A stretch of 64,000 nucleotides of DNA, taken from positions 752,622 through 816,621 of the forward strand of contig NC_015315.1 of the NCBI RefSeq assembly GCF_000193375.1, read 5' to 3'. Shown here piece after piece: positions 38,022 through 64,000 of this stretch. The notes beneath the pieces are model-generated. The model was not told the DNA's origin. It made no database searches and saw nothing but the letters and a program-made list of their open reading frames with translations. Each line of letters begins with the position of its first letter. Within the stretch, counting starts at the first letter, position 1. A program made the translations under genes and the position numbers. This DNA is from Thermoproteus uzoniensis 768-20 (GTDB lineage: Archaea > Thermoproteota > Thermoprotei > Thermoproteales > Thermoproteaceae).

Positions 38022-38327
38022 TTGCAATGCGGTCCATATCTCATGTGCCTTACTCGGTCTTTGTTGGCGCGTTTTTATGGTTCTTTGGATTTTTCTCTTA
38101 GGGGTCTTCTTCATTTTAAGTCTCTTGCGGCTTTGGGCTATCCCTTTGATAAGGTTCTTGTGGAAGAGCCTTGGAAGACATACGACGTATTGACGTCGCT
38201 AGTGGGCAGACACAACGCAGAGCTAATACTGACAATGCTCCACAAATGGCTAAACAACAACGGATGCACAATAGACCCAGAAACGCTGAGAAAATACCTA
38301 ACGACGAGGGAGCTATGGACGAGTTAA
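38022..38327 (+). CDS. Small hypothetical protein, about 94-101 aa
   Basis: Not recognised. The frame opens with TTG at 38022, with an in-frame ATG at 38043 (MCLTRSLLARFYGSLDFS). The C-terminal part, VLVEEPWKTYDVLTSLVGRH to IDPETLRKYLTTRELW, has a credible helical protein pattern. Codon use is more AT-rich and less biased than that of its neighbours. It overlaps the following double RecA ATPase gene by 13 bases, which supports co-expression. An out-of-frame ATG at 38027 gives only 24 codons. Confidence 0.5.
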   Translation: MQCGPYLMCLTRSLLARFYGSLDFSLRGLLHFKSLAALGYPFDKVLVEEPWKTYDVLTSLVGRHNAELILTMLHKWLNNNGCTIDPETLRKYLTTRELWTS

Positions 38328-46539: not shown

Positions 46540-47499
46540 ATGAGCTTCTCCCTAGACGACCTCAACGCCCTTAGGCACTACGGCCGCTTCATAAAGGCGA
46601 ACGGCGGGATAGACGAGGTGAGGAAGGCGCTGGCCTGGAGCCTCTGGTACGCCGTCAAGTGGTGGGACGAGCTGAGGCGTGAGCTCGGCGTAGACGCTGG
46701 CGGAGGCATCTTCGGCAAGGCCCTCTACATGGCGTTGAGGGCCCGGGGCGTCGTCGACGACGAGGGCGAGATAGTCAAGAAGGTGGAGAGGCCGGAGAGG
46801 CCGGTCAACCCCTACGCGGCGGAGTTCGTAGAGCTGCACGAGGCATTCGACGCGCTTGGAGCCGCGAGCGTGGCCCGGGGGATCGTCGACCGCGAGAGGC
46901 TGAGGGTCCTCTACTCCTCCATGCTGGCCCAGGGTTGGTACAACATAATGAGGGACACCTTCCCAGACGTCGTCAAGGTCGAGAAGTTCGGCAAGATAGT
47001 GGAGCCCCACTGCAAGGAGGGGCAGATGGCCTACGCCGTGTTGAGGCGCCACTCGCCCGACAAGTACTTCGCCTACGACCCCGAGCCCGACGACGTGGAG
47101 GCCGCTGCGGCCCTTCTCGGCGCCTCCCCCAATACGTGCGGCGAGAGGATATGCGTGGTTCAGACGCCCACCATCTGCGACCCCCACGCCGCCGAGACGG
47201 CGAGGAAGTTCGCCGGCCAGTTCGACGCCGCGTTGATCTTCCACACGCTGTACTGGATGTCCGACCCCCTCACGGAGCTCTCCTGCCTCAAGAAGGCCTT
47301 GAAGCCCGGCGCCGCGGTCCTCGTAGGCCAGCAGGTGGTCGAGTCGACGCCGGGCCTCCTCGCCATAGTGGTCTCCTTCGGCGCCAAGCACGTATTCCGC
47401 TGGAAGGACGTGGAGTCTCTGCTGGAGGCCGCCGGCTTCAAGAAAGAGAAGAGGTACACGAGGTACTCGCCCTACTACATCGCGGTCTGGCGGGCCTAA
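46540..47499 (+). CDS. Methyltransferase-like protein, atypical motif I
   Basis: A 319-residue protein. The N-terminal 130 residues are helical and dimerisation-like (KALAWSLWYAVKWWDELRRE), followed by a Rossmann methyltransferase core. The glycine loop is unusual: VEPHCKEGQMAYAVL replaces the GxGxG motif I, with AYDPEPDDVEAA as the acidic strand that should hold the SAM ribose. Later motifs AALIFHTLYWMSDP and HVFRWKDVESLLEAAGF are ordinary. The layout recalls O-methyltransferases acting on small molecules. The decayed relative just upstream has a normal motif I. Substrate unknown; SAM use is inferred. Confidence 0.7.
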   Translation: MSFSLDDLNALRHYGRFIKANGGIDEVRKALAWSLWYAVKWWDELRRELGVDAGGGIFGKALYMALRARGVVDDEGEIVKKVERPERPVNPYAAEFVELHEAFDALGAASVARGIVDRERLRVLYSSMLAQGWYNIMRDTFPDVVKVEKFGKIVEPHCKEGQMAYAVLRRHSPDKYFAYDPEPDDVEAAAALLGASPNTCGERICVVQTPTICDPHAAETARKFAGQFDAALIFHTLYWMSDPLTELSCLKKALKPGAAVLVGQQVVESTPGLLAIVVSFGAKHVFRWKDVESLLEAAGFKKEKRYTRYSPYYIAVWRA

Positions 47500-47526
47500 C
47501 GCGCCCCATCGCCCCTCCAGCCCCTA

Positions 47527-49650
47527 TTAATCTCTGCCCTCTTCTTCTCTCTTCTGCGTCCCCCATGTTCTTGTCTCTTCTCCTTCTAGCGGCTCTAGTC
47601 TTATTACTTTTCTACGTTTTCTGACAGCTAACACAGCGGCGAGGACGGCTACAGAAGCCGCGACGGCAATCACAAACAAAGGAGCTTCACCAGACAGCAA
47701 AGTAGAAGACGACGAAGCGATAATAGTCCTAGTAACCACAGAAGAAACAGTAACAGTGGATACAGAAGGCGAAGAAGCAACGACAGAAGTAACCGTCAAG
47801 ACTGCCGTGGTGGTGACTGTAGCGGCGGTACCCGTAGGCACCGCACTCGTGGTCGATGACTCGATCCCTGTTGGGACAACTATCTTTACGGTTTTCACTT
47901 CCCCTGGCTTTAGCTCTATCTGTTCGGTTATGTTTTTCCCCTCCGTTAAGATCTCCACGGTGTAGTTTCCGGCGAGTAGCTCCAGCCCGGCAGGCGGCTT
48001 CTGGAAGCTCATGGAGATTGGACCCTCTAGCAGAACCTCGCTGGGCTGTATCTGCCGGCCTGAGCTGTTCACAACCACTATGCTGAGATTTGCCGTGGGT
48101 ATCTGGACGACGGCGTTAACGACCTCGCCTGCCTCGACAACGACGGCCTTTTCGAACTTCTTCCCGAAAGCCTTTGCCGCAACCACGTAGTTGCCGGCCA
48201 AAACCTCTAGAGGCCCTACAGTTCCGTTGCCAGAAGCCACCCCGACGATCTCGACAGGCCAGCTATCCACCACTCTCCCGAAGCTATCCACCACTCTCGC
48301 CGATAGCCGGCCGGTCGGTACCCGCACCACAATCTCGCTACCGTTAACAACAAACGTAGTGCTGTAAAAGAAGCCCGGCCCGTAGATCCTCGCTATATAC
48401 CTCGTTCCCTGGAGCAACTTAGCTTTCGCCACACCGTCGCCACTGGCCACAAGCACATTGGTGCTCGGATACACCACGTCTATGTGCCAATCCTCAACAG
48501 AGCCAAAACCATCGACCACGCTGACAGAAACCGGAACGGCAGGCAGAGGAATAGAAATCGAGAAATAAATAACTCCGGTTACATTAACAGCAGGTGCCCA
48601 GTGAACATCGGGCCCGGGCATAGCGGTTCCGATCGCATATATATTAAGCCCATCAGAGGCAGTAGTAATAATTTTGCCGAATCCATTTATTATTTTAAGA
48701 CCATAATATTCATTCTGAATATTGTTTAATATTAATGGCTCTAAGTCAATAACATTTATCTTATTTAAATTTAAATCTAGTATCAATAGTTTATAGTCAG
48801 CAGTAACTACATATAATAGGTTACCTGCATATACTACTCCTACTATAGTAAAGTTTCCGGTGAAGCTGGCCAGTTCTGTGCCGTTCGGGCTGTACTTTAC
48901 TATGCCCCCTCTGCCGTATACGTAGGCGTCGCCCGCGTCGTCGAATGCGACTCCGAGGGCTCTTCCCGGTAGGCCCGGCTTCAATACCGTTGGCTTGGTC
49001 AGATTCCTATTCAAGACCAATATAGCCCACGTCGCGTTGCCACCTGAAATTGTATCCCCAACGACCCAAAGCTGGCCAGTGACTGGGTCAATGCCGACGT
49101 ACTGCGGTATGCCAATCATATTTGGTGAAGTATACTCAGCAATAAGATCCAGATTGAGATCTCTCTTCTCAATATGCCAATATGAATAATTCCCAAAAAT
49201 TTCTGAACCAACTACGTAAATATATTCATAATCAGATGTCACAAAATAAGCTCGACCCTTTATATAACTAACTTTACCGGTTGGTGCAAATGGATATATC
49301 GGAGTACTAATTAGAAATCCCCAGTATCCACCGGCCTCGCCCACTGCGTACAGCTTACCGTTAACAACGATGCAACTAGATAAAGTATTAGCATTTTTGA
49401 AGGAAGATAGACGCATACCAATACTAGCCCCGCCGCTTCCGTTTACTTTAAGAAATGAGAAAATACTCCATTCCATATCGGTGGTGTTTGCGATCCATTC
49501 ATAACCTACAATGTAACCGTATCGATCTCCCAAACATATACCGTACGATTGACCAGGCATAACAATAAATCCAACCCATGGAACTTGTGCGAAGATAAAA
49601 ATAGCCAACGACGAAAAGACTAGTATCAGTATAGATATGGTCCTGATCAT
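47527..49650 (-). CDS. Membrane-anchored surface protein with cytoplasmic EET tail
   Basis: A 707-residue protein: signal segment (ISILILVFSSLAIFIFA), a beta-propeller-like N-terminal domain (about 25-380, repeats such as AFDDAGDAYVYGRGGIVKYS), then Ig/carboxypeptidase-regulatory-like modules (FGRVVDSWPVEIVG, GNYVVAAKAFGKKF). A Ser/Thr/Val stalk (about 595-645), one membrane helix (LFVIAVAASVAVLAAVLAV) and a 38-residue charged cytoplasmic tail with EETRTW (Thr 693, 695) complete it. The first half is coded by clearly more AT-rich DNA than the second. It borders the FHA genes, and the tail could be a phosphothreonine docking site (inference). Confidence 0.75.
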   Translation of the reverse strand: MIRTISILILVFSSLAIFIFAQVPWVGFIVMPGQSYGICLGDRYGYIVGYEWIANTTDMEWSIFSFLKVNGSGGASIGMRLSSFKNANTLSSCIVVNGKLYAVGEAGGYWGFLISTPIYPFAPTGKVSYIKGRAYFVTSDYEYIYVVGSEIFGNYSYWHIEKRDLNLDLIAEYTSPNMIGIPQYVGIDPVTGQLWVVGDTISGGNATWAILVLNRNLTKPTVLKPGLPGRALGVAFDDAGDAYVYGRGGIVKYSPNGTELASFTGNFTIVGVVYAGNLLYVVTADYKLLILDLNLNKINVIDLEPLILNNIQNEYYGLKIINGFGKIITTASDGLNIYAIGTAMPGPDVHWAPAVNVTGVIYFSISIPLPAVPVSVSVVDGFGSVEDWHIDVVYPSTNVLVASGDGVAKAKLLQGTRYIARIYGPGFFYSTTFVVNGSEIVVRVPTGRLSARVVDSFGRVVDSWPVEIVGVASGNGTVGPLEVLAGNYVVAAKAFGKKFEKAVVVEAGEVVNAVVQIPTANLSIVVVNSSGRQIQPSEVLLEGPISMSFQKPPAGLELLAGNYTVEILTEGKNITEQIELKPGEVKTVKIVVPTGIESSTTSAVPTGTAATVTTTAVLTVTSVVASSPSVSTVTVSSVVTRTIIASSSSTLLSGEAPLFVIAVAASVAVLAAVLAVRKRRKVIRLEPLEGEETRTWGTQKREEEGRD

Positions 49651-49845
49651 ACAAGGACTATAGATAGCGCTTAAAAACCTTCTTACTACGTTTGGTAGAT
49701 TGCCATAATGTGTTAGAATGATGTAATCTAAGAAAAATCATAAATCTAACTAATTCTTTTAGTATAGAGTTTGATTTATTGTTAGTTTAGTTAAATTATA
49801 TAATAAAGACGAGAATCGAGAGGGATATGAAGAAAGACAGTGGCC
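49651..49845. other. AT-rich intergenic spacer
   Basis: About 195 bases, strongly AT-rich, between two minus-strand genes. A minus-strand TATA-like element close to 49670 should serve the surface-protein gene. No gene or RNA seen. Confidence 0.5.
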
Positions 49846-50655
49846 CTACTTAAACTTGCCTGTTACGAACTTTATGCTGAGGATCTGGGCGACGGTGATT
49901 ATGTCGCCGGGGTTGAGGACTTGGGCGCCGAGGCCCTTTATGGGGCGCCCGTTGAGGAACGTGCCGTTTTTAGAGCCGAGATCCTCTATGTAGTAGCGCC
50001 CGCCGACGTAAGATATGGCGAAGTGCGACCTGCTTATGTACCTCAACAAGTCAGAGGGGACGCCGAGCCGCGCGAAGAAGTCCCGGCCGTACACCATATA
50101 CGGCTTGTCCACCTTAATCCTCACGCCGGCCGGGAGGTAGAGGTAGTAGACCGGAGGAGCAGGCGGCAGGGCCTCCGGCTTGCCGCGTAGCGCCAGATAC
50201 AGCGCGATTGCGGCTACGGCGGCCGCGCCCGACGCAGAAATCGCCGAGTAGGGAGGCGCCAACAACAACGCGCTTGCTACTGCAACTGTCGCGGCGGCGG
50301 CCGCGACGGCGTACGGCAGGGGGAAAACCCGCCTGGAGGCAGGCCCTATGACGAGCGTGAAGACGTAAGGGGTACCTGCGTGGTCTACATACACTCTGTA
50401 GTTGCCGGGGGTCGTCAGAGGCGAGGTCCTCCAGAGGAGATACTTGCCCGCCTCCCCCGCCTCGAGCGACTTCTCCGATACCAACACGCCCGTGGATAGG
50501 TCCACTATTCTGACCGAGATCTTCCCGGCGCCGCCTACCTGCAGGTAGATGTCCTCCCCCGGGAGGAAGCGGAGCCGCTCTCTGCCGGCGGCATCCACTA
50601 TCGAGACGCCCCACTGAGGCGGCGAGGGGGGCCCGGCGTTTGGTGCGGCGGCCAC
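49846..50655 (-). CDS. Membrane protein with cytoplasmic FHA domain
   Basis: A 269-residue protein: extracytoplasmic beta domain (residues about 15-105, RERLRFLPGEDIYLQVGGAG), two membrane helices (about 106-155), a short linker, and a C-terminal FHA domain with the full phosphothreonine site: YGRDFF, ISRSHFAI, IEDLGSKNGTFLNG. FHA domains bind pThr peptides, so this looks like a surface-linked signalling receptor or docking protein. Starts with GTG at 50655; divergent from the vWA-FHA gene with only 29 bases between them. Analogous in parts to ArnA of the Sulfolobus archaellum regulators, but with a different architecture. Confidence 0.88.
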   Translation of the reverse strand: MAAAPNAGPPSPPQWGVSIVDAAGRERLRFLPGEDIYLQVGGAGKISVRIVDLSTGVLVSEKSLEAGEAGKYLLWRTSPLTTPGNYRVYVDHAGTPYVFTLVIGPASRRVFPLPYAVAAAAATVAVASALLLAPPYSAISASGAAAVAAIALYLALRGKPEALPPAPPVYYLYLPAGVRIKVDKPYMVYGRDFFARLGVPSDLLRYISRSHFAISYVGGRYYIEDLGSKNGTFLNGRPIKGLGAQVLNPGDIITVAQILSIKFVTGKFK

Positions 50656-50684
50656 AAATTAATTAATAGTCCTATTTATAAATC
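50656..50684. promoter_or_regulatory. Compact divergent promoter of the two FHA genes
   Basis: The whole spacer is 29 bases. AATTAATTAATAG (50656-50668) is about 23 bases before the ATG at 50685; TTATAAATAGG on the minus strand (about 50669-50681) is about 20 bases before the GTG at 50655. The two TATA boxes are adjacent, so the two polymerases would compete. Confidence 0.6.
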
Positions 50685-52214
50685 ATGGTCCGTTTAGGAG
50701 ATTTAGAGGTCGACCTATACGCCAACAATACCCCCGACGGCTATTTAGATGTCGAGGTCAGGCTGAGCGCAAGGGGCCGGGGGCCTGCGCCCGAGACCAA
50801 CACCGCCTTCGCCATATTGATAGACAAGTCGAAGTCTATGGCCGACTTCGACAAGCTGGCGCACGCCATAGAGGCCGCGAAGGGGCTCGTCGAGAGCATG
50901 GCGCCGGAGGACATAGTCGCCGTCTACGTCTTCGACGAGAAGGTCAAGGCCTTGGTCCCGCCAACCCCAGTCGAGAAGGCCAGGAAGATGTTGGGCAAGA
51001 TAGAGAAGATAAAGCCGGGGACCTACACCCTGCTCTACCAAGCCCTCCTCCAAGTCATAGACGACTTGAGGGGGATCAAGCGGGGCCTCCCGCTCATGCC
51101 GAGGAGGGCCGTCCCCGAGAACATCCCCAAGAGGATAGTGGTGATAACCGACGGGGAGCCCTGGCCCTACTACACCGAGGAGAGGTGGTACGAGCACCTC
51201 GGCAAGGCCGCGGCGAGGTACGGCATAACCATATCGGCTATAGGCATCGGCGACGACTACAACGAGAAGATACTCTACGCCCTAGCCAACAGCTCGGGCG
51301 GCGCCTGGTACCACATATCGCAGATACGCGACATATCGCAAGTGCTTGCCAACGAGCTCAGGAGGGCGAAGACCGTCGTGGCGAGGAGGCCCAAGATAGC
51401 GGTGGAGCCTTCGGGGGCCGAGCTCGTCGACGTGAGGAAGATAGGCGCCGTCGTGTCGCGGCTACCGGTATCCAAGGAGGTGGAGCTGGAGGACGTGGCG
51501 GCCGGCGACGTGATCAGCGCGGTCTTCAGATTCAAGACCACCTCGCCCGACTACCGCGTCGAGGTCTCAGTCACGACAGACGCCGGCACCTACCGCGACG
51601 TGGTGACGAGCGACAAGCTGACCCCCGACAGGACCGCCACGCTGACCCTATCCATGGCCCAAGAGCTGGAGAAGCTGGCGGAAGGCGGCGTCGTGAGCGT
51701 GGAGGTGCTTAGGGCCGTCTCGGAGACCCCCACGGCGCCCGAGCCCTTGAGGAGGAAGGCGCAGAGGCTCCTCGAGGCCGCGCCGTCGGGCGAGGGCAAG
51801 GAGGCCTTCTGGGAGGCCACAGTGACCCTCACACTGCCCGTCGAGGAGCAACAGCTCGAGGCCACCGCAGAGAAGCCGGCCCCCCAGACGCCCGCCCCGC
51901 AACAAGCGGGGAAATGCGTCTTGACCTGTATAGAGACTGGGAAGAGCATGGAGGTGCCGATCCCGGCCCTACTCGGCCGCGAGGACCTCCAACAGATAAT
52001 ACCGCCGGAGAAGGTCCCCTACATATCGCGCCGCGTCGGCGAGAGGGCCCACCTGGCGATCTATAGAGGAGAAGACGGGATATATATCAAAGACGCCGGC
52101 AGCAAAGGCGGGGTATACGTCGAGGGCAAAAAGGTGGCGGAGCCCCTGAGGCTGGCGCAAGGCGCCGTGGTGAACCTAGCCGGTGTCGTCAACATAAGAA
52201 TTGAATGTAGCTGA
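50685..52214 (+). CDS. vWA-FHA protein
   Basis: A 509-residue cytoplasmic protein. The N-terminal von Willebrand A domain (about residues 35-220) carries the MIDAS start DKSKSM and the later ITDGEPW. A beta-sandwich and helical middle (about 225-370) and a Pro/Gln linker (KPAPQTPAPQQAG) lead to a C-terminal FHA-like domain: LLGREDLQQIIPPEKVPYIS, then GERAHLAIY, and DAGSKGGVYVEG. In the latter, the Asn of the usual SxNG is Gly, so pThr binding may be weakened. vWA plus FHA partners are known from ArnB/ArnA, which control archaella in Sulfolobus; here control of the neighbouring filament machine is inferred. Confidence 0.88.
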   Translation: MVRLGDLEVDLYANNTPDGYLDVEVRLSARGRGPAPETNTAFAILIDKSKSMADFDKLAHAIEAAKGLVESMAPEDIVAVYVFDEKVKALVPPTPVEKARKMLGKIEKIKPGTYTLLYQALLQVIDDLRGIKRGLPLMPRRAVPENIPKRIVVITDGEPWPYYTEERWYEHLGKAAARYGITISAIGIGDDYNEKILYALANSSGGAWYHISQIRDISQVLANELRRAKTVVARRPKIAVEPSGAELVDVRKIGAVVSRLPVSKEVELEDVAAGDVISAVFRFKTTSPDYRVEVSVTTDAGTYRDVVTSDKLTPDRTATLTLSMAQELEKLAEGGVVSVEVLRAVSETPTAPEPLRRKAQRLLEAAPSGEGKEAFWEATVTLTLPVEEQQLEATAEKPAPQTPAPQQAGKCVLTCIETGKSMEVPIPALLGREDLQQIIPPEKVPYISRRVGERAHLAIYRGEDGIYIKDAGSKGGVYVEGKKVAEPLRLAQGAVVNLAGVVNIRIECS

Positions 52215-52269
52215 GCCTGCGTCGTCTGTCATAGAGCAAAATTAAAAAATTGCGCTCTAGCGAATCACT

Positions 52270-55200
52270 ATGTCTAATACTATAAAAGTGGCGGTTATAG
52301 TTCTATTACTGCTACTCGCCGCAACGCGTATATCGGCCGCCCAATCCACAAGCCAGCCAGTGGTCCAAGTCATAGAGCTACCCGGCACAATAGAGAACTG
52401 GATAGACACTACGTCATACAACTTCGTCCTCGGCCGCAACGCAGAGTATTGGTTGATGTTCGTGCTACCGAGCATAGACCAACAGACATTTGACAATGGC
52501 TTGATAAATGTCATAGCAATAGCAATACCGTACAGCCCTGATGACGAAAAAGTATTAGATAGTCTTATATCAACATTAGTTAATGATTTAGCGAATCAAC
52601 AATGGGATAATAATAAAATAGCATATGATCTGAATCAATTAAAAAGTTTTAGAAATATATTTTACCCATATGAAGCATTTAAAATAAAATTAATATTCAT
52701 AATACTTGTACATACACAAGGTCTATTTGATATATTTAGCGATGTATTAAACACGCTAGCACAGAGTAAACCAGGGGCTGCCGCTGCGCCGTATACCTTA
52801 ACAATCCTTGAATATTTACATAAAAAATTAAATAATTGGTATAAAACATATCAAGATACTTTAAAATATGAATTACAAAATGAATTAAAAAATATTAATC
52901 TTTATGTAGAAAGTAAAAACAACATTGATGGTTATTACACTCTTAAGTATGGTATTGACATAAATAATCAACAAAATAATATTGACATAAATAATCAACA
53001 AAATAATCCATATATCTATGTTTATATTAATGTAAAATACACAGGACAATATCAGTGTACAGTGACCAGCTTTGAAATTGATAATTTTGACCAAATCGAT
53101 GGTTATTATCTTGATGATATAATAACTTCACTTTCTAATAATGTGATTCTTGCTAATGATAAATTTATCGATTCAGTTTTTGCTACAGTCGATCCAAAGA
53201 TTATTCCAAATATAATCAATGACATAAATTATAATCTTAAAAATTATTATGAAAATCTCTATAAATCGTATATTCTTTATAAGCTAATCCACAATGTCCA
53301 GTCAGATGAATCTAGTCAATTAACTGCTTCTGGAAACTCAATTGATGATTGTATAAATTCCTTAAATCAAAATTTACCAAATTATATCAAAAATTATATC
53401 CAAAATATAATTCTTTCTCAATTTGAACATATATACAGTAACTTGGATAATCAATTAAATACTTCTCCTCTGCAAAATTCTCTAAGTCAAACCTTTAGTA
53501 AAACAATTTCTTCTAAGTTATCTAATGATGTTGCGAATGAACTTAATAATATGCTTTCTACCGATTTAAATATTAATGTTGATAACACTATTGCTTCATA
53601 TATTAGTGGTACTGCTTCTAGTTGTATTTCTAAATATGTCGATAAATTCTTTAAAGAATCTGTAAAAGAATCTGTAACTGAGTTTTTTGCCACATTGCCT
53701 GGCGCTAATGTGGTGCTGATATTGGCAAACGGAATTGTGGGCGCTTTAAGTAACGAGATAACGATTAGCGGCAACATAAAAGTCTCTAAACTATGGACTC
53801 CAGATGAATCAATAGGTAAGTCAATAAGCATACCTGTCTTCAATGTTACAGATAGTGCGACATGTAGAGCCCAGTACGAGCCGCTTTCGGCATCTTTTGT
53901 GAGTAGCCCGTCTTTAGGCGAGGCGCTTTTCGCCGGCGTTAAGGGATTCTTGAGTGCGGTGGCCGATATGTTTGTGCCAGGTAGTAAAGGGATAATTGAT
54001 ATGATCCCAATAGTCCGCGAGATTAATCTACCAGAGGATAATCTACAGAATAATCCACCCGAAAGGTATTACTTCGCAGTTCCTGCGGTTCCGGGAATAT
54101 ACAATATTACGATCACTTACGACGCTACCAGTCTATTGCAGAGCTTTATAGACAGTTTTAAAAAGAGTGTAGCTAATGAACTAGAAGGATTAAGTTATAC
54201 TAGCGATATTCAAAAAATTATAAATGATACAATATCTAGATATATAAATAAGGGTGAAATAAAATTCAATTCCCTTTCTATTAATAGTAATCAAGAAGGT
54301 AAATTAAGTATCTATATTGTTTCGGTGCCTCCATATGTTATCGGCAGCAAATATAATGATGATAAGTCTAATATAAACTATTTTAATTACAATCTTACCT
54401 TCGATTTCTGGTCGCTTGGAAGAGTATATATCTACGGTACGACGTTAGATAAATTAGGGAGTATCATAAGCAGTCTATGCACGCCACAGAGTTCCTCGCA
54501 GACAGCGGCAGGCCAGCCGTTGAGCAATCAGCCGCAATCATGCTCATCACAAAGTTCTGCATCCGGCGATATTTTATATAGCATATGTTCTAGTGCTGTG
54601 AACAGTTTATCCTGCCAGATTTCGCCAATATTATCGTCGAGCTTGGAAAGCTCAACAGGCGGCCTAACGGGCGGATCGTCTTCGTCTGAAGGCCCGACGG
54701 GCGAATCGTCTTCACTTAAATGCTCCATTGATCCCGGTAAGTTGGCCACGTTGGTTAGCAACACGATTGCCTCAAATATAATAAACCAAGTTACGAATTT
54801 CATACAGAATTCTATAAATAATATAGGAAATTATATTTGTGAGCAAATAGATGACTATGTTAATAATAAATTATCTGATACAGCAATGGAGATAGTAAAA
54901 CAGTTGTTTGGTCAGTATAGTATATTCAATGGGCTGGTAACCGAAAACCAAGTTCCAGATTCCATAAAAGGTCAACTATGTAGCTTGTCTATTATAGGTT
55001 ATTCCAAATTATATTTAATAAATCTATATCAAAGTATTACTGATGCTATGTATATACCTACATATTTCTTATCTATGTATCCCTTGACTACGCCTATACC
55101 CTCGCCGACGCAACGGCTTTGCTACGGCGTAAATGTTCCTTCCGGCTTTATATATTACAATATATCATCCGATAATCCCGAGCCAAATCTCTATAAAAAC

Positions 55201-55434
55201 ATAACTTTGCCTGTCCTCTTAGGCTTCAACGAATACTTCACCGCGTTGCGGGTGTACCCTGTGTTTGTGGTCAACGACAGCAAGTCGCTGAATCCCTATT
55301 ACGTCATTGTGCCATACTCGGCGCCGGCTAGAGAGCTCTTTGTGTTGGGGACTGTTGGCAATACAATAATATATAGTGATACTAATATTGTAAATGAAAT
55401 AAATAAACCATTTATATATATTAATATACATTAA
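52270..55434 (+). CDS. Giant AT-rich secreted protein
   Basis: A 1054-residue exported protein, not recognised. Signal peptide VAVIVLLLLLAATRISA; then very Asn-, Gln-, Ile-, Ser- and Tyr-rich sequence with long helical stretches, a GC-richer Ser/Gly/Thr linker (GGLTGGSSSSEGPTGESSS), and a C-terminal beta-rich part (LYKNITLPVLLGFNEYF). No membrane anchor at the end. Base composition differs sharply from the neighbours: 52801-52860 has 11 G/C in 60, against 38 in 60 at 51481-51540; the first 250 bases and parts of the last third are GC-normal. It contains a 27-base tandem repeat. Probable secreted substrate or sheath of the second filament machine (inference from position). Confidence 0.75.
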   Translation: MSNTIKVAVIVLLLLLAATRISAAQSTSQPVVQVIELPGTIENWIDTTSYNFVLGRNAEYWLMFVLPSIDQQTFDNGLINVIAIAIPYSPDDEKVLDSLISTLVNDLANQQWDNNKIAYDLNQLKSFRNIFYPYEAFKIKLIFIILVHTQGLFDIFSDVLNTLAQSKPGAAAAPYTLTILEYLHKKLNNWYKTYQDTLKYELQNELKNINLYVESKNNIDGYYTLKYGIDINNQQNNIDINNQQNNPYIYVYINVKYTGQYQCTVTSFEIDNFDQIDGYYLDDIITSLSNNVILANDKFIDSVFATVDPKIIPNIINDINYNLKNYYENLYKSYILYKLIHNVQSDESSQLTASGNSIDDCINSLNQNLPNYIKNYIQNIILSQFEHIYSNLDNQLNTSPLQNSLSQTFSKTISSKLSNDVANELNNMLSTDLNINVDNTIASYISGTASSCISKYVDKFFKESVKESVTEFFATLPGANVVLILANGIVGALSNEITISGNIKVSKLWTPDESIGKSISIPVFNVTDSATCRAQYEPLSASFVSSPSLGEALFAGVKGFLSAVADMFVPGSKGIIDMIPIVREINLPEDNLQNNPPERYYFAVPAVPGIYNITITYDATSLLQSFIDSFKKSVANELEGLSYTSDIQKIINDTISRYINKGEIKFNSLSINSNQEGKLSIYIVSVPPYVIGSKYNDDKSNINYFNYNLTFDFWSLGRVYIYGTTLDKLGSIISSLCTPQSSSQTAAGQPLSNQPQSCSSQSSASGDILYSICSSAVNSLSCQISPILSSSLESSTGGLTGGSSSSEGPTGESSSLKCSIDPGKLATLVSNTIASNIINQVTNFIQNSINNIGNYICEQIDDYVNNKLSDTAMEIVKQLFGQYSIFNGLVTENQVPDSIKGQLCSLSIIGYSKLYLINLYQSITDAMYIPTYFLSMYPLTTPIPSPTQRLCYGVNVPSGFIYYNISSDNPEPNLYKNITLPVLLGFNEYFTALRVYPVFVVNDSKSLNPYYVIVPYSAPARELFVLGTVGNTIIYSDTNIVNEINKPFIYINIH
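52954..53007 (+). repeat. 27-base tandem repeat, two copies
   Basis: ATTGACATAAATAATCAACA plus 7 more bases, repeated perfectly at 52954-52980 and 52981-53007, encoding twice a nine-residue IDINNQQNN unit. A copy-number change would keep the frame. Confidence 0.85.
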
Positions 55435-55435
55435 A

Positions 55436-56047
55436 TTAAGAAATTTTTAATATTATTTTTTCTGTACAATAAGTTTTCCAGAGCACGTAGGGCGTATTTC
55501 CCAATGTGCCGCATATCTGTTGCGAAATAGCTAGGCCTACTTGGCTAAGTGCTTGACATATACTAGAGGATTGTAGAGCGGACTCGGCGCTTGCTAATAA
55601 AAGATAGCCCAGCGTGCACTCGCTCACCTTTTCGGGGCTCGGCATGACGGCCCATGCCTTTATTGTGTAGACTCCGGGGGTCAGCGACGTGCAGCTCTGC
55701 GCGCCTGCCGACGTAACGACCTCGACGGATACGTCGGCCGTCACTACGCGGAGGCCGGCCGGGGTGAATATGGCTATACAAGTCGCGGCGTTGCACTGCG
55801 GGAGCGCGACGGAGGCGCACGTGGGCGGTGATGTGGGGCTGTATATGTACATCTGATAGCCTTGGGGCAACACGAGCACGGCTTCCCTCTCGGCTCCTAT
55901 GGGGGTGGCCAGTAGGTATTTCAGAGCGATGTCGACGTTTTCGGCGAAGACGGATCTTATGTTGTTCATGAGGTAGAGGTAGGTGCCGTATATCGCCAGA
56001 GTTACGGCGACCAGCAACGCCACTAGGAGGACGTAGGAGACGTTCAT
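55436..56047 (-). CDS. Pilin-like membrane protein 7 (last gene of minus operon)
   Basis: A 203-residue protein with an N-terminal hydrophobic helix (YVLLVALLVAVTLAIYGTYL), then an extracytoplasmic domain with at least eight Cys (TCASVALPQC, TCIAIF, SICQALSQ, QQICGTL), which suggests several disulfides. TadE/minor-pilin-like by topology only; no clear prepilin leader. It overlaps its upstream neighbour by 4 bases and ends 1 base from the end of the giant protein gene on the other strand. Confidence 0.65.
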   Translation of the reverse strand: MNVSYVLLVALLVAVTLAIYGTYLYLMNNIRSVFAENVDIALKYLLATPIGAEREAVLVLPQGYQMYIYSPTSPPTCASVALPQCNAATCIAIFTPAGLRVVTADVSVEVVTSAGAQSCTSLTPGVYTIKAWAVMPSPEKVSECTLGYLLLASAESALQSSSICQALSQVGLAISQQICGTLGNTPYVLWKTYCTEKIILKIS

Positions 56048-56853
56048 TGCCCGACGTTACAGGGAGCCATTATTATGGTGCCCGCTCCTTGCCCCACCGA
56101 TGCGACGGCTATCACGAGCTCGCACGTGCTCTGTTGGGCGAATTCGGGCGGGACGGCGATCTTTATCTCGTGTATCCCCGTGACGTTGAAGTACCATATG
56201 GCTTGGTCGGGGCTGAAGCCGCCGAGTGCTGGGAAGATCACCACGGTGGGCTGGCTCTCAGCCGACTGGCTCCCGGTCGATTCGCTCCCGGTCGACTGGC
56301 TTCCAGCAGACTGGCTCTCGATCAGGAAGGCGGCTCCGTACGTTATCAGCTTGACGGGGCGGTTGCCCGCGATCAGCTGGACCGTGGCCTTGACTCCGCC
56401 GAAAAAGCCGAGGCTCTTCGTCTCGACGGACACGTCTGCCTGCGAGTACGTGTAGGCGGTTATCCCGTCGTCGCATTTAACAGCGGCGTATATGCTCTTT
56501 ATGTACACCACACTAGACCCGGTCACATCTACATTCAATTCGGCTAGATCGCACCTTATGTTTCTGATCAACGCGTACTCGCCTGCCTTCTCCGTAAATA
56601 TGGCATTGAAGGTGTCTGTAAAGGCTTGCTTTATTGAATCGGCGTCCATGCTAGGGTTGCTTATCATCTGTGCTGTGGCGAGTATGGACTCCTCTACGGC
56701 GTTGTTCAGCATCTGCTGCACCTCCAGCTTGCGTATGGCGTAGTCCTCGATGGCGACCTCCGGCCCGAGGGTCCGTTTCGGCAACGTGATCAGCATAATC
56801 AGAGTGATGGCGAGGATCGTCGCCACTACCGCTATTGCTACTTGCCCCCTCAT
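56044..56853 (-). CDS. Pilin-like protein 6 with Ser-Gln repeat linker
   Basis: A 269-residue protein. Class III-like start MRGQVAIAVVATILAITLIM, a helix (IRKLEVQQMLNNAVEESIL), a first beta domain, then a flexible linker of five SQSAG/SQSTG-type units, then a second beta domain (AIWYFNVTGIHEIKIAVPPE). The N-terminus would be cleaved after Gly3 by a prepilin peptidase. Coupled by 4-base overlaps on both sides. The linker length may vary because its DNA is a 15-base tandem repeat. Confidence 0.72.
   Translation of the reverse strand: MRGQVAIAVVATILAITLIMLITLPKRTLGPEVAIEDYAIRKLEVQQMLNNAVEESILATAQMISNPSMDADSIKQAFTDTFNAIFTEKAGEYALIRNIRCDLAELNVDVTGSSVVYIKSIYAAVKCDDGITAYTYSQADVSVETKSLGFFGGVKATVQLIAGNRPVKLITYGAAFLIESQSAGSQSTGSESTGSQSAESQPTVVIFPALGGFSPDQAIWYFNVTGIHEIKIAVPPEFAQQSTCELVIAVASVGQGAGTIIMAPCNVGQ
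56249..56323 (-). repeat. 15-base tandem repeat, five units
   Basis: Units at 56249, 56264, 56279, 56294 and 56309, each close to GACTGGCTCCCGGTC on the plus strand, encode the SQSxG linker of the pilin-like protein. Imperfect copies. Confidence 0.8.
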
Positions 56854-57245
56854 GTCGACAACATCAAGACGACTATTCTGCCGTCGCCTCTGAGTATCAC
56901 GATTGAGGCGCCGTCGGCCGTCGAGGGGTTGAAGCCTCTCGTTATGGTGAATATCTTGCCGCCGGTCAGCGAAATGACGGTGAGGTTGTAGCCTATGTTG
57001 GGCGGTATAAGCGTCTCCAGCGCCGCGCGGGCGTACTGCGGATCGCCGCTGCCGCCTATGCCGTAGGCTATGGCGTATATCACCCCGCTCTCCGTCCAGT
57101 TCATCAGTATCCTCTGCGCGTCTAGCCTCAACGCGTAGTTCCCGCTGGTGTACTGGACCTTGAAGAGGTACTGGCTTAGGACGAGCGTCAGCACCAACGC
57201 TATGGCGATTAGGGCGGCCTCCAGCAACGCCGCCTGTCCCTTCAT
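56850..57245 (-). CDS. Pilin-like protein 5
   Basis: A 131-residue class III prepilin-like protein: MKGQAALLEAALIAIALVLT, with cleavage expected after Gly3 and a long hydrophobic helix, then RLDAQRILMNWTESGVIYAI and a compact beta domain ending in VVLMLST. The KGQ start is that of archaeal pilins. ATGA overlaps with both neighbours. Confidence 0.75.
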   Translation of the reverse strand: MKGQAALLEAALIAIALVLTLVLSQYLFKVQYTSGNYALRLDAQRILMNWTESGVIYAIAYGIGGSGDPQYARAALETLIPPNIGYNLTVISLTGGKIFTITRGFNPSTADGASIVILRGDGRIVVLMLST

Positions 57246-57727
57246 GGCCTCTCCAAAGTCGCCAGGACTGTGCCGTTGGGGAGGACTAGGAAGGCCTTGG
57301 CCGGCTCATTGACCAACTGCGACTGGCTGAGGCAGGGGAGCTGGCCGGTTGCGGCCGTCAAGGCGCTTGCCGGGATGACGTACGACGGAGAGGGCACCAG
57401 GAAGTAGTAGCCCCTGGGGTAGCCGAAGTACGTGGCGTTTATTAGGAGGGCCGGGAACCCCTCGGCTCTGTAGAGCTTGGCGTCCAGATTCGTGCACAGC
57501 ATGTAGTACGGCGTGAGCTGGACGGTGCCCCCCGGCAGATTAACGACGTAGAAATGGCTCGGCATGAAGTAGACTTTCTGGCCTGCGGCCATGGCGTCTT
57601 TCAAGACCTCGTATCTGCTCTTGAGCACGTCTAGGTACCCGTCTACGGTGGAGAGGAAGTTCGAAACGGTTAGGTATATCGCTACGATAAAAACAATGAC
57701 GAGGACGGTGGCTTCCACCACATTCAT
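57242..57727 (-). CDS. Pilin-like membrane protein 4
   Basis: A 161-residue protein: N-terminal helix VVEATVLVIVFIVAIYLTVS, helical neck, then a beta domain with two Cys (MLCTNLD, QLPCLSQ). The Glu at position 5 matches the Glu5 of many type IV pilins. No basic leader. 4-base overlap with the next gene; 27 bases from the gene before it, with an AT-rich gap. Confidence 0.68.
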   Translation of the reverse strand: MNVVEATVLVIVFIVAIYLTVSNFLSTVDGYLDVLKSRYEVLKDAMAAGQKVYFMPSHFYVVNLPGGTVQLTPYYMLCTNLDAKLYRAEGFPALLINATYFGYPRGYYFLVPSPSYVIPASALTAATGQLPCLSQSQLVNEPAKAFLVLPNGTVLATLERP

Positions 57728-57754
57728 GCAGTAAATAAGACAGCTATATTTAAA

Positions 57755-58282
57755 CTATTTTAGGTATATCTCTATAGTGGAGTCCTCTACCATTTCTCCC
57801 GCCTTGCAGTAGGTCGAGACGTAGTATACGTACTCGCCGTTGTCGACCTGGGCCTTTATCAGCCTCGGCGCCGGTAGGGCGAGGCCTTCCCCGCACGGCT
57901 TCCAGCCGACCACTCTCTTCAACGCCACTATCTCGGTGCCGGTGCCCGGCAGAATCGATATCTGGCGGGCCCACTGGCCTAGCTCAGTTGTGTTGAAGGA
58001 GCATTGAGCCGGCTCCCTGGTGTCGGTGCCCACAGTTATAACCACGACGTCTCCTCTGAGGTTAACCACGATTGGGTAGTAGAAATCCACGTAGCCTGTG
58101 TAGTTGCCCGGCTCGGCCCACGCAGACTGGGCCAGCACTTGCAGAAGCGTCTCGACCTCCCTACACGCCTCGTAGTTTATCTGGAAAACCGCGCCGTTAT
58201 ATACCGTAAATACATATAGGGCCGCCGCGATGCCTCCCAGGGCGAGGAGGACGTAGAGGAGGACTACCGAGGGGATCTCCAT
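57755..58282 (-). CDS. Pilin-like membrane protein 3
   Basis: A 175-residue single-helix membrane protein (SVVLLYVLLALGGIAAALYV) with an extracytoplasmic domain carrying four Cys (EACREVE, AQCSFNT, KPCGEG, TYCKAGE) and glycosylation sites. It starts MEIPSV, one base behind the previous stop. Not recognised beyond pilin/TadE-like topology and operon membership. Confidence 0.66.
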   Translation of the reverse strand: MEIPSVVLLYVLLALGGIAAALYVFTVYNGAVFQINYEACREVETLLQVLAQSAWAEPGNYTGYVDFYYPIVVNLRGDVVVITVGTDTREPAQCSFNTTELGQWARQISILPGTGTEIVALKRVVGWKPCGEGLALPAPRLIKAQVDNGEYVYYVSTYCKAGEMVEDSTIEIYLK

Positions 58283-58283
58283 A

Positions 58284-58856
58284 TCACTTAACTACGGCAG
58301 TCCTCACGTATATCTCCACGAACGCGGCGCTACCTCGATAGATCACGCCGCCGTTATATTTCACCTCGACCGTACAGGAATCGCCGTTCTGGGGCGTCAG
58401 CGTAGTCTCCGCCATAGACACAGTCTCGATAGTTACGGGGGAGCCGTAAATATATCCGGGCTTCAAGTTCGTTATGTCGGTGAAGGTCAGCGTTATGTAG
58501 TTTACTCCGTAGAGGACGCCGGTCGATATATACGCGCCGACGGGCTCTGCGGTGGTTTTTTGAAATATGGCGGAGAGGTCGGGCTCTATCTTGACCAAAT
58601 TACCCGGGTAGTCCGGCGTGAAGTACCATACAGGGTACTGCTGGGACCAGCGGCAGTTCGGCGAGGTCACCTCGACATAGATCTCCGTGGCGTAGAGGGA
58701 CTGCCTGAAGTTGTAGGTGTTGGCTACCTTGAGCAGTTGCCAGGACGGCTGGATGTAGTTAGCCGATTTGAGAAGAGGGAAAACTATGGAGGCGACGAAG
58801 TACGTAAGCCCGATTATCAAGAAGAAAAAAAGGAGCGTGGGTACTATTTCTTCCAT
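58284..58856 (-). CDS. Pilin-like membrane protein 2
   Basis: A 190-residue single-helix membrane protein: MEEIVPTLLFFFLIIGLTYF, then an extracytoplasmic beta domain (QQYPVWYFTPDYPGNLVKIE) with two Cys. Its start overlaps the previous stop by one base (TGATG). Topology and operon position suggest a minor pilin or a filament-anchoring subunit; the family is not recognised. Confidence 0.66.
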   Translation of the reverse strand: MEEIVPTLLFFFLIIGLTYFVASIVFPLLKSANYIQPSWQLLKVANTYNFRQSLYATEIYVEVTSPNCRWSQQYPVWYFTPDYPGNLVKIEPDLSAIFQKTTAEPVGAYISTGVLYGVNYITLTFTDITNLKPGYIYGSPVTIETVSMAETTLTPQNGDSCTVEVKYNGGVIYRGSAAFVEIYVRTAVVK

Positions 58857-59347
58857 CAGTGTACCGTTACGGGGTAGAGATCGGACCTGACGTTGCTAGA
58901 GCCGGAAGTATAATAGACGGCTAGGTAATATGTCTGGCCCGGGATAAGGTTACCGCTATAAGTGCAATAGAACGTGACTTCCTGGCCGGCTCCTACAGGT
59001 ATACTGAAGCTCTGAGACGAAGAGGAGGCCGAGCTGCTCGAGCTACTCTGAGATTGGCCAGGAGGATTACATTGTAGCTGAGGTGGTTGGCTACTAGATT
59101 GACTGCCAGTACCGTAAATTACTGCGCCCGTTATCTGGGTTGAGGCGCCCCCGACCTCTCTAACCGTGATGGATACGTCGTACTGCCCCGGCGAAAGCTG
59201 AGTCACCTCGGCGCTTTCTATGATTATCTTAGGATGTGGGTTGAAGAACCCGGAGAACATGGCCCAGAACATTAAGACGGCGACAATGCCTATAACAGTC
59301 AGCAACACTGTCACCACCACACCGCTTATTCCGGCTACTGCCCGCAT
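58856..59347 (-). CDS. Pilin-like protein 1 (first gene of minus operon)
   Basis: A 163-residue archaeal pilin: MRAVAGISGVVVTVLLTVIG, leader cleaved probably after Gly6, long hydrophobic helix, a beta strand domain (VTQLSPGQYDVSITVREVGG), a Ser/Gln-rich flexible insert (SQSSSSSSASSSSQS) and a final strand set. The ATG at 59347 is chosen over an upstream frame because a TATA box lies 24 bases before it. As first and best-promoted gene it may be the main subunit of the second filament. Confidence 0.8.
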   Translation of the reverse strand: MRAVAGISGVVVTVLLTVIGIVAVLMFWAMFSGFFNPHPKIIIESAEVTQLSPGQYDVSITVREVGGASTQITGAVIYGTGSQSSSQPPQLQCNPPGQSQSSSSSSASSSSQSFSIPVGAGQEVTFYCTYSGNLIPGQTYYLAVYYTSGSSNVRSDLYPVTVH

Positions 59348-59364
59348 ATCTCCTATATTTTGTT

Positions 59365-59435
59365 CCTTTATATAGTTTCTCCCGAGGCGGCACGACATAT
59401 GGGGTCTATTGATGTCTTAAAAAAGCATAAAAACC
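59365..59435. promoter_or_regulatory. Divergent promoters of the second filament locus
   Basis: CCTTTATATAG (59365-59375, read on minus) lies 24 bases from the ATG at 59347; CATAAAAACC (59426-59435, plus) lies about 25 bases from the ATG at 59455. The pilin-like operon and the ATPase-platform operon are thus set up as in the first filament locus. Confidence 0.6.
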
Positions 59436-59454
59436 AATTACCATTAAAAAGATT

Positions 59455-61674
59455 ATGCGCATCCTTGGGCGCCTCATCAAAGGCGGCGGTTCCGAGGAGG
59501 AAGAGGAAGGCGGTGGTGAGGTTTCTGTTAAGACGTGGCGCGGCGGCGTTTCTGGGCCTGTGGTGTCCACCTATAATGTGGGGATCTCCACTATCAAGAT
59601 AGTGGATACGGGCGCCTCCTATATGTATGTGGTCGAGGATCCGCCTGTCCCCGAGAAGTCGCTCAAGAAGTTGGGGGCCGCTCTCGCCAAGATCTCGGAG
59701 GAGGTGGAGGATCCTGGGCTCTTTCTCGATCTCAGTAGGAGGGAGGAGGCCTCCAAATATCTGAGGGGGAGGCTGGCGAAGTTGGGCATCAAGGACGCCA
59801 CTTTGGTCGCCCTTGCCGAGAGGGAGCTCTTGGGCTTCGGCCCGCTGGATCCCGTCCTCCGCGATAAGAAGCTGGAGAACGTAGAATGTAAGGGACCCGA
59901 CCTGCCGCTCAACGTAGTGCATACCGAGTATGGGAGGCTTGAGACGAACATGAAGTTCTCCAAGGGGGAGCTGGACAAATTGATCCAGCGCCTTGTCTTC
60001 CTCACGGGGAAGACCATAAGCGTCTCGAACCCCAAGATCGACAACGCCTTTCTCCAAGGCGTGGGGCGTCTTACGGCGACGTTCGGCGAGGAGATATCTA
60101 GGGGCTCCTCCTTCGTGGTGCGTATCTTCCCCGAGAAGCCGTGGACTGTGTTGGGCCTCCTGGAGAGAGGCACCGTGTCGCCCGAGCTCCTGGCGTATCT
60201 CTGGCTCGCTGTAGAGTACAAGATGCCGATATTGATAGCGGGGGAGATGGGCTCGGGGAAGACCAGCTACGCCAACGCGATACTGGGCCTCGCGCCTCCA
60301 GACAAACGCATAGGCACTGCTGAGGATATTCCGGAGTTCCGCATCCCCCACAAGAACTGGCAGGCCTACTACACCGACGACAAGAGAGGCATCGGCTTGA
60401 TGGACCTCGTCGCGTTGCTTCTGCGCGCCAACGTGGACTACGTCGTGATTAACGAGATAAGGGGGGCCAGGAACCAGAAGGGCGAGGTAGACGCAGCCGC
60501 GTGGTTTCAAGCTGTGGCGACGGGCCATGGCGGCGTCACGACCATACACGCAGACACCGTGGAGGACGTGTTTAACAGGCTCGACCACATGGGCATACCT
60601 CCGGCCTATCTGACGTCTCTGGCTCTCGTGGTCTATATAGGTAGGTTCAAGATAGGCGGGAGGATACAGCGCAGGACCCAGTACGTCTTCGATATAATAG
60701 ATCCCTCTAAAAGGCTGTACAACGTCTTGTTCGAGTACGACAGAGAGGGCGATCGGTACGTGGCCAAGGGCCTAGAGACGGCGAGGACTACGCAGAGGAT
60801 TATGGAGCTCGCCAAGTGGGACTTGGAGAAGTTCAAGAGCGAGTACGCCAAGCGCGTCGACTTTCTCGGCAGGCTTATGTGCCTTAACAGAAAGAAGCCT
60901 ATCCAGACCCTCGACGAACTGGCCGATCTGTTCGCCAGGTTCTACAGAGGATATGTGCCCGAGGTGTCGGACTGCCCGCCTCCCAAACAACAAGAGGCCC
61001 GGAAGGCCGAAGGCGTCGCCGCGGACTGGATCCTCAAGTTTAAGCTGCCGCGCGGGAGGAAAGTTATATATTTCGAGCCGTCGCCTGGCTTGACCCTTTT
61101 AAACGTGGAGGGTACCTCGAAGGTCGTCGAGGAGGAGGTGTTCGAGCTGAAGGCTAGGGGTAGCGGCGAGTTGAGGTACCGGGTCGAGCTGGACGGGAAG
61201 GTAATAGATCAAAAGGCGATCCCGTTGTTGAAGAGCGACGCCAGATTGACGGCGCCGACGCAGAAGGTCGACGCCTTGGAGGTGCCGCGGATGCCGGCGC
61301 CGCCTGCTCCCCAGCCGGGCGGCGAGCGGCTACAGAGCGAGGAGACGGTGGTCTGGGAGGAGACGCGGTTGTTAGAGGAGACCCTCGTGGCCTCCGACAT
61401 GTGTATTAAGTTCGGTGGAGGGGTCTTGAAGCTCGTCGACGGGAAGATCTATGGGAGGGCCGACTTCGCCTTTCTGGGCGATCTGTCTTCATACGTCTCC
61501 CGCCAACACTTCAAGGCGCTTCTTAAGGAGGGCCGTTGGTATCTCGAGGATCTTGGCTCCAGAAACGGCCTCTACATAAACGGCGTCAGGGCCAGCCCGG
61601 GGACACCTGTCGAGATAGCGTATGGGGCGAAGATCAAGGTAGGCAAGGCCGAAGGCGTTGTTGAGCCATGTTGA
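59455..61674 (+). CDS. Type IV filament ATPase with C-terminal FHA domain
   Basis: A 739-residue fusion. Residues about 90-480 are a GspE/TadA secretion ATPase: LLGFGPLDPVLRDKKLENV, Walker A GEMGSGKTS, the Asp box AEDIPEFRIPHKNW, VVINEIRGARNQ and the His box GHGGVTTIHADTVEDV. A beta region (about 520-600) follows, then three hexapeptides EETVVW-EETRLL-EETLVA (Thr 631, 637, 643), then an FHA domain: YGRADF, VSRQHFKALL, LEDLGSRNGLYINGV. An FHA domain on a filament ATPase, with likely phosphothreonine motifs just before it, suggests self-binding control as in mycobacterial GarA (analogy). It overlaps the platform gene by 7 bases. Confidence 0.92.
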   Translation: MRILGRLIKGGGSEEEEEGGGEVSVKTWRGGVSGPVVSTYNVGISTIKIVDTGASYMYVVEDPPVPEKSLKKLGAALAKISEEVEDPGLFLDLSRREEASKYLRGRLAKLGIKDATLVALAERELLGFGPLDPVLRDKKLENVECKGPDLPLNVVHTEYGRLETNMKFSKGELDKLIQRLVFLTGKTISVSNPKIDNAFLQGVGRLTATFGEEISRGSSFVVRIFPEKPWTVLGLLERGTVSPELLAYLWLAVEYKMPILIAGEMGSGKTSYANAILGLAPPDKRIGTAEDIPEFRIPHKNWQAYYTDDKRGIGLMDLVALLLRANVDYVVINEIRGARNQKGEVDAAAWFQAVATGHGGVTTIHADTVEDVFNRLDHMGIPPAYLTSLALVVYIGRFKIGGRIQRRTQYVFDIIDPSKRLYNVLFEYDREGDRYVAKGLETARTTQRIMELAKWDLEKFKSEYAKRVDFLGRLMCLNRKKPIQTLDELADLFARFYRGYVPEVSDCPPPKQQEARKAEGVAADWILKFKLPRGRKVIYFEPSPGLTLLNVEGTSKVVEEEVFELKARGSGELRYRVELDGKVIDQKAIPLLKSDARLTAPTQKVDALEVPRMPAPPAPQPGGERLQSEETVVWEETRLLEETLVASDMCIKFGGGVLKLVDGKIYGRADFAFLGDLSSYVSRQHFKALLKEGRWYLEDLGSRNGLYINGVRASPGTPVEIAYGAKIKVGKAEGVVEPC

Positions 61675-63359: not shown

Positions 63360-64000
63360 ATACGGAAGAGCCGCCAGAGCGAGCTCCGCGAGGTCTTGAA
63401 GTAAAGGGCAACCGCGGTCGCGTTGTCCTTGGTCTTGTTCTCGACGGCTTTTATCAGCTCATTAACATGCCGATCGGGCCCTCGTAGATACGCTGCGTAT
63501 AACCTCTTGTCTGGGAGAAAGTCGTCGATTCCGTCTGTAACGGCCAGCAACGCTCCGCGCGCCCCAATCGGGATCTTGAGTATGTGGGGTCCTACATAGC
63601 TCTTGTGGCCTACTGCCTGTACTATGTAGCGGGCACGTTCATCCCTATTAGGGGTTAAATCCGTCACAGTCCCCTTCTCGAAATCCACGAGGTACATAGG
63701 GCTGTCGCCCACATTGCCCGCCACGACTGTCTGCGAGTTGACGTCGACTAACGCCACAGAGAGCGTCGTGGCTCCCTTCCCCAATCTGGATACGGCCTCA
63801 TGGGCCTTGGAGAATAGATCCGCCAGCCAGCTCTCGTCGTAGTGGTCCGCCTTCGCGAAATTTGCGATCACGGCGCATATGGCCGTAGAGCTCGCCGCGT
63901 CGCCGTAGCTTAAGCCCCCTACGCCGTCGGCAACAGCCACGAGTCCACGTCCCTCTTCCTCCTTCACAGCCACGGCGGCCGAATCCTCGTTCAACTCACG
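63356..64000 (-). CDS. PP2C-type Ser/Thr protein phosphatase (N-terminus beyond window)
   Basis: At least 214 residues of a PPM/PP2C phosphatase; the frame continues through the right edge as RELNEDS, which is the R-x-x-NED metal-binding motif near the N-terminus of the family. Further motifs: VAVADGVGGLSYGD, VAGNVGDSPMYLVD and LLAVTDGIDDFLP, with the Asp residues that hold two metal ions. It removes phosphate from Ser/Thr and would reverse the marks read by the three FHA proteins encoded nearby (inference). A TTG at 63994 is not needed as start. Slightly short for the family. Confidence 0.88.
   Translation of the reverse strand, partial: RELNEDSAAVAVKEEEGRGLVAVADGVGGLSYGDAASSTAICAVIANFAKADHYDESWLADLFSKAHEAVSRLGKGATTLSVALVDVNSQTVVAGNVGDSPMYLVDFEKGTVTDLTPNRDERARYIVQAVGHKSYVGPHILKIPIGARGALLAVTDGIDDFLPDKRLYAAYLRGPDRHVNELIKAVENKTKDNATAVALYFKTSRSSLWRLFRI

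Follow-up and report, generated by a model that had tools for sequence, protein, structure and literature searches.

The window analyzed here is a stretch of 64,000 nucleotides from Thermoproteus uzoniensis 768-20, whose genome is a single contig of 1,936,063 bases. An island of ~20.45 kb (C1:800121-820569) starts at position 47500 of the window and ends ~3.9 kb beyond it. The genes of the island and its two flanks are as follows.

46540..47499 (+): methyltransferase (Pfam Methyltransf_23), left flank, outside the island; the orthologue adjoins a Rad51-like gene in three other Thermoproteus genomes, G013, G014 and G015
47500..64000 (no strand): part of the island within the window, from the empty-site comparison
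47527..49650 (-): surface protein of 707 aa that has a signal sequence, is anchored in the membrane at its C-terminus and bears Thr in its cytoplasmic tail, as read from sequence; GC3 0.48
49846..50655 (-): membrane protein ending in an FHA domain (Pfam FHA 5.7e-15); orthologues in G010, a Pyrobaculum genome of the same family, and in the draft genome G008
50685..52214 (+): vWA-FHA protein (Pfam VWA 6.6e-16, FHA 1.7e-7); 65% identity to G010, 51% to G008
52270..55434 (+): giant AT-rich protein of 1054 aa, predicted to be secreted, between the vWA-FHA gene and seven convergent pilin-like genes
55436..56047 (-): pilin-like protein 1, hydrophobic at the N-terminus (from sequence); 46% orthologue in G010
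56044..56853 (-): pilin-like protein 2, class III-like with MRGQVAIAVV at its N-terminus (from sequence); orthologue in G010
56850..57245 (-): pilin-like protein 3, MKGQAALLEA, class III-like; 73% identity to G010
57242..57727 (-): pilin-like protein 4, by synteny with G010
57755..58282 (-): pilin-like protein 5, by synteny with G010
58284..58856 (-): pilin-like protein 6, by synteny with G010
58856..59398 (-): pilin-like protein 7, AGISGVVV motif, start probably at 59347 (NCBIfam UpsA E 0.0013, below cut-off)
59455..61674 (+): T2SSE/VirB11-type ATPase that carries an FHA domain at its C-terminus, joined by a linker with conserved EET repeats (Pfam T2SSE 4.9e-23, FHA 1.1e-11)
61668..63359 (+): T2SSF/TadC-type membrane platform, UpsF-related (Pfam T2SSF 4.7e-13; NCBIfam UpsF 2.4e-24, below cut-off)
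63356..63994 (-): PP2C phosphatase, running beyond the window as L076:3977-4900 (Pfam PP2C_2 1.3e-11)
L076:4774-5958 (-), past the window: kinase-FHA protein (Pfam Pkinase 9.7e-36, FHA 2.9e-8)
L076:6096-8498 (-): 800-aa surface protein, last gene of the island
C1:820573-821511: Rad51-family gene, right flank

The locus contains a T2SSE/VirB11 secretion ATPase and a TadC/FlaJ (T2SSF) platform, both expected of an archaeal type IV pilus-like system. By eye, a class III-type RG/KG motif precedes the hydrophobic stretch in three of the seven pilin-like proteins, and the other four have an N-terminal hydrophobic segment without that motif. The island encodes anchored surface proteins, a phosphothreonine module and the machinery of a type-IV-pilus-like system, whose filament is predicted from the genes. 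A second T2SSE-type ATPase gene is present in the window at 35705-37174 (G000:C1:788389-789669) and is followed by a short AT-rich stretch (~37501-38250, GC 0.37-0.46).

FHA domains are carried by three proteins in the window part of the island, namely the vWA-FHA protein, a membrane protein and the ATPase. The PP2C protein and the kinase-FHA protein encoded past the window complete a phosphothreonine module. The ATPase linker that leads directly into the FHA domain has three EET motifs in both T. uzoniensis and G010 (SEETVVWEETRLLEETLVA, GEETLVAEETKVVEETLVA), while the rest of the linker is divergent. This suggests that the motifs may be phosphorylated by a kinase and then recognized by the FHA domain next to them, as a switch within the same ATPase. 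C-terminally anchored surface proteins with short acidic/Thr cytoplasmic tails are encoded at 47527-49650, L076:6096-8498, L039:3851-6250 and L119:4863-7259, and the tail motifs listed for the anchored island proteins are EGEETRTWG, VDKTHTWVAG, KEDSDTKVRETRG and YDETKTRTG. The island kinase and FHA domains may act on these tails. We also considered an antiphage defense island and rejected it, the matches being to generic kinase models only.

The two flank genes lie 5 bp apart in G015 and G013 and ~40 bp apart in G014, and therefore ~20.45 kb was either inserted in T. uzoniensis or cleanly lost from three relatives. The G010 island occupies another site, between spt4 and a gene coding for a 126-aa protein, and that site is empty in T. 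uzoniensis. Insertion is favored over loss because the G010 cluster sits elsewhere and its flank genes adjoin in T. uzoniensis. Both insertion sites are tight convergent gene ends. We found no terminal repeat of 11 bp common to both island ends and no tRNA near the right end, and saw no recombinase or integrase among the island ORFs. Synteny with G010 holds gene for gene over the giant gene, the seven pilin-like genes, the ATPase and the T2SSF gene. The favored reading of these gene orders is that the locus was gained horizontally as a genomic island, with separate points of entry into the Thermoproteus and Pyrobaculum chromosomes.

The giant protein occurs in 2 of 398 genomes of the phylum, T. 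uzoniensis and G010, which are exactly those with close relatives of the ATPase and T2SSF, a co-occurrence of giant and filament genes that rests on n = 2 genomes. Close T2SSF relatives are confined to the same two genomes except for one 32% relative in another order, and the full-length relative of the FHA-fused ATPase within the order is that of G010. In the G008 draft, contig C27 (L119 1-8563, 8.6 kb) carries genes for kinase-FHA, PP2C, membrane FHA, vWA-FHA, FHA and surface proteins consecutively. On that contig there are no giant, pilin, ATPase or T2SSF genes. As it holds the signaling half without filament genes or giant gene, the latter is to be grouped with the filament half.

The product of the giant gene starts with a Sec-type hydrophobic signal sequence at residues 1-25 and has no C-terminal anchor, in agreement with the original prediction of a secreted, probably surface-exposed protein. 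It is rich in Asn, Gln and Ile, as had also been proposed (107 N, 48 Q and 117 I of 1054 residues), and its eight Cys are aligned and conserved in the G010 orthologue. We obtained no significant domain-database match for it (including Pfam above cut-off, NCBIfam and PHROG), no match among viral and plasmid sequences, and none in the genome-contig sequence set, whether the query was the protein or the two-row alignment. Thus, the search against viral and archaeal proteins suggested with the original prediction returned nothing viral and, among the 398 genomes of the phylum, only the G010 orthologue. A viral, plasmid or phage origin was rejected for lack of any match to the window protein. PHROG tape-measure matches (E 3e-5) were obtained with the G010 orthologue only, and being long and poorly collinear, they were put down to chance or helical bias. 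No fold or binding domain was recognized in the protein. Residues ~800-900 gave a single weak profile match to BPI (1bp1; E 0.015), in which one conserved Cys falls on a BPI disulfide Cys column; this likeness to the BPI/TULIP fold is a lead only. AlphaFold2 run without relatives yielded pLDDT values of 34.7 and 42.3 and an unusable model. Internal domain duplication was rejected, as the hhalign matches were shared overlaps of adjacent segments, and there was no excess of N-glycosylation sequons (8 found versus 17.5 expected). UpsX of the Ups pili is predicted to be cytoplasmic and is conserved across Sulfolobales (PMC3892339); the giant protein is not UpsX, since it has a signal sequence and its matches are in T. 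uzoniensis and G010 only, of 398 Thermoproteota genomes. It appears to represent a new family of secreted proteins with a narrow distribution.

The gene is uninterrupted over 1054 aa, with 93 and 136 stops in the other two forward frames. Its composition is strongly AT-rich, as first noted, with GC 0.348, GC3 0.32 and GC4 0.41 against mean values of 0.598, 0.756 (sd 0.12) and 0.78, respectively, for genes in a ~0.5-Mb sample of the 1.94-Mb genome. The four lowest in GC among the 4947 1-kb windows of that sample all fall in this gene, with a minimum of 0.248 versus a mean of 0.593 (sd 0.062). The base counts given with the original prediction were exact on recount: the 60 bases at 52801-52860 include 11 G/C, and the 60 at 51481-51540 include 38. 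Recoding the protein with genome codon usage gave GC 0.486 and GC3 0.71, showing that amino acid composition alone is insufficient for the low GC; codon choice thus accounts for ~59% of the deficit and amino acid composition for the rest. The codon usage agrees with that of a second AT-rich island in the genome, where consecutive glycosyltransferase and methyltransferase genes have a GC3 of 0.25-0.47 (L041:570-9665; C1:10570-19665), with r = 0.89 for the glycosyltransferase island.

Composition is also patchy along the gene, as had been noted too, GC4 ranging by segment from 0.20 (codons 101-450) to 0.64 (codons 951-1054; chi-square p = 4e-7). The ends had been described as GC-normal but are less AT-rich only, with GC 0.43-0.48 in codons 1-100 and 0.38-0.43 in the last 100. 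A perfect in-frame tandem duplication of 27 bp at 52953-53006 (+), where the protein is least conserved, encodes IDINNQQNN twice and shows that there has been some recent local length change.

AT-richness is not a trait of secreted genes generally, as GC4 shows no difference between the secreted and cytosolic sets, nor of pilus loci generally, as it was found in none of 20 loci of the family. In those 20 other loci, none of the secreted proteins with 200 aa or more lies 0.2 under the local GC4 median, and none of the 31 secreted proteins of at least 400 aa is AT-rich; several secreted proteins there are 1,170-1,210 aa long. Because none of these 31 large proteins is AT-rich, there is no functional explanation for the composition of the giant gene.

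The single orthologue found for the giant protein, encoded by G010 at L039:11531-15166, has 1211 aa and 34-36% identity to it, and is collinear along its full length apart from insertions. Identity is 37-51% in the center (codons 451-700), also strong in codons 901-1053, and weakest in codons 201-450 (16-27%). The orthologue is AT-rich as well, with GC 0.41 and GC3 0.41 versus a mean GC3 of 0.72 in the G010 genome. Smoothed GC along the alignment of the two genes is correlated with r = 0.65, a value matched by no circular shift, to which shared amino acids contribute partly; for third positions only, r is 0.45, which 3.5% of circular shifts attain. Fourfold-site identity at conserved sites is 0.33 for the giant pair (chance 0.25) and 0.31 for the flanking ATPase pair (chance 0.30), i.e., synonymous sites between the two islands are saturated or near saturation. 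As both orthologues are nonetheless AT-rich, the AT bias has outlived synonymous turnover. Among 136 sampled orthologue pairs, a set that omits the giant pair because its aligned pieces are split, none had GC3 below 0.45 in both genomes. The AT-rich orthologue, the parallel profiles and the saturated synonymous sites together indicate that low GC is a lasting property of this gene. Its odd composition is stable, gene specific and long held, and is probably neither a remnant of recent acquisition nor the mark of cassette exchange. A further AT-rich gene in the G010 island, L039:6198-6803 (GC 0.37), has as its product a membrane-anchored extracellular coiled-coil protein rich in Asn; no counterpart was seen in the T. 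uzoniensis island.

Several explanations of the composition were weighed against this reading. The original prediction was that of acquired or recombining central cassettes in a surface protein, as in variable adhesins. The patchiness (p = 4e-7), the low conservation in the most AT-rich part (codons 201-450) and the 27-bp duplication within that part fit such a gene, but its expected pattern of conserved ends and a variable middle is not what comparison with the only orthologue gave, the center being conserved, collinear and AT-rich in G010 too. No candidate cassette donor was found either, the gene being single copy in the genome and without match in the phylum beyond the orthologue, or in viruses or plasmids. 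We therefore regard this explanation as very unlikely; what survives of it is that the locus was acquired, at the scale of the whole island as judged from the empty sites in three congeners; recombining cassettes find no support in the two genomes compared. Recent acquisition of the island or the gene from an AT-rich donor, before amelioration, would agree with the island being an insertion and with other AT-rich genes occurring in accessory-type loci, such as the glycosyltransferase genes of L041 with their similar codon usage (r = 0.89). However, the ATPase, T2SSF, vWA-FHA and most pilin-like genes of the island have a host-like GC3 of 0.75-0.84, and both orthologues are AT-rich with synonymous sites near saturation, so that this origin would require two separate recent donors sharing one profile, and we consider it unlikely. 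Low GC could also simply result from rapid evolution under weak constraint, with mutation biased toward AT, given that the giant gene is the most diverged of the cluster (36%) and that identity correlates with GC3 within the cluster (rho 0.68). Yet identity scarcely predicts GC3 in the 136 orthologue pairs (rho 0.17 and 0.04), and many genes at 30-40% identity keep GC3 above 0.75, which makes this explanation rather doubtful. Weak codon selection, selection at the nucleic acid level and origin in an AT-rich gene pool are candidate causes of the composition.

As for the function of the protein, several Thermoproteales pilus loci encode a large signal-peptide protein proposed to be an adhesin, and the T. 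uzoniensis pilus locus has been described as having at least six unique components (PMC4858521, Makarova et al. 2016). The giant protein is probably a secreted adhesin or a tip/anchor partner of the type-IV-pilus-like filament; we regard this role as the likeliest because the gene tracks the filament half and because of the signal sequence, the size and the eight conserved Cys. Alternatively, the protein could be secreted cargo, or form an S-layer-like sheath, and depend on the island without being located on the filament; the large size, the conserved Cys and the missing C-terminal anchor would be consistent with this, and S-layer-like proteins are often encoded in archaeal pilus loci (PMC4858521). 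But the giant gene is absent from G008, which has the anchored surface protein and the signaling module without filament genes on the contig concerned, and such a role seems somewhat improbable.

Starting from the observed island, synteny, co-occurrence and conserved composition, secretion, an adhesin role and a phospho-switch can be proposed as follows. The giant, disulfide-bearing protein would leave the cell through Sec and be displayed on the filament or the cell envelope, where it would work alongside the type-IV-pilus-like filament as adhesin or tip/anchor partner. The island kinase and PP2C would set phosphothreonines, to be read by the FHA domains of the three proteins named above (ATPase, vWA-FHA and membrane FHA), and this reading would switch filament assembly on or off. 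Filament genes, giant gene, phosphothreonine module and anchored surface proteins would move jointly as a 20-22 kb island. The boldest form of this proposal, which we put forward tentatively as a possibility, is a mobile island whose pilus ATPase is directly FHA/phosphothreonine-switched and which carries a new-family gene actively held at GC ~0.35-0.41 by a gene-specific selective or mutational force in GC-rich hosts.

The island resembles the archaeal type IV pili of Thermoproteales and Sulfolobales (ATPase subclades 4A/4I, including Ups) in its T2SSE ATPase, UpsF-related T2SSF protein, pilin-like proteins and large signal-peptide protein. It differs from them by the FHA domains on the ATPase and other parts, by the kinase and PP2C in the locus, and by a large protein without relatives outside this island type. 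The combination of FHA, vWA, Ser/Thr kinase and protein phosphatase, known here from genes, recalls the regulation of the Sulfolobus archaellum by ArnA/ArnB; in the island, however, vWA and FHA are fused and inside a filament locus, FHA is on the ATPase itself, and the phosphatase is PP2C instead of PP2A. As the FHA/vWA regulators ArnA/ArnB are reported never to lie within T4P loci (PMC4858521), this arrangement is unusual. If the phosphothreonine module is tied to the pilus ATPase, direct posttranslational control of an archaeal filament becomes testable. The locus also suggests that archaeal pilus systems can pass between genera as a complete 20-kb unit carrying its own signaling kit. It provides a clean case of deviant base composition kept past synonymous turnover, and hence a caution against calling AT-rich islands recent acquisitions.

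PilY1-type tip adhesins of bacteria are very large secreted proteins encoded beside minor pilin genes. Likewise, the gene of the giant secreted protein adjoins a block of minor-pilin-like genes, but unlike PilY1 the protein has no detected vWA or beta-propeller domain, and the two have no sequence relation. In the pilus locus of G131, from another order, a 1482-aa secreted protein is encoded by a gene that is not AT-rich, and its neighbor, a gene for a 518-aa pilin-like protein beside the T2SSF gene (L120:13375-14931), is AT-rich, with GC 0.44 in a region of 0.60.
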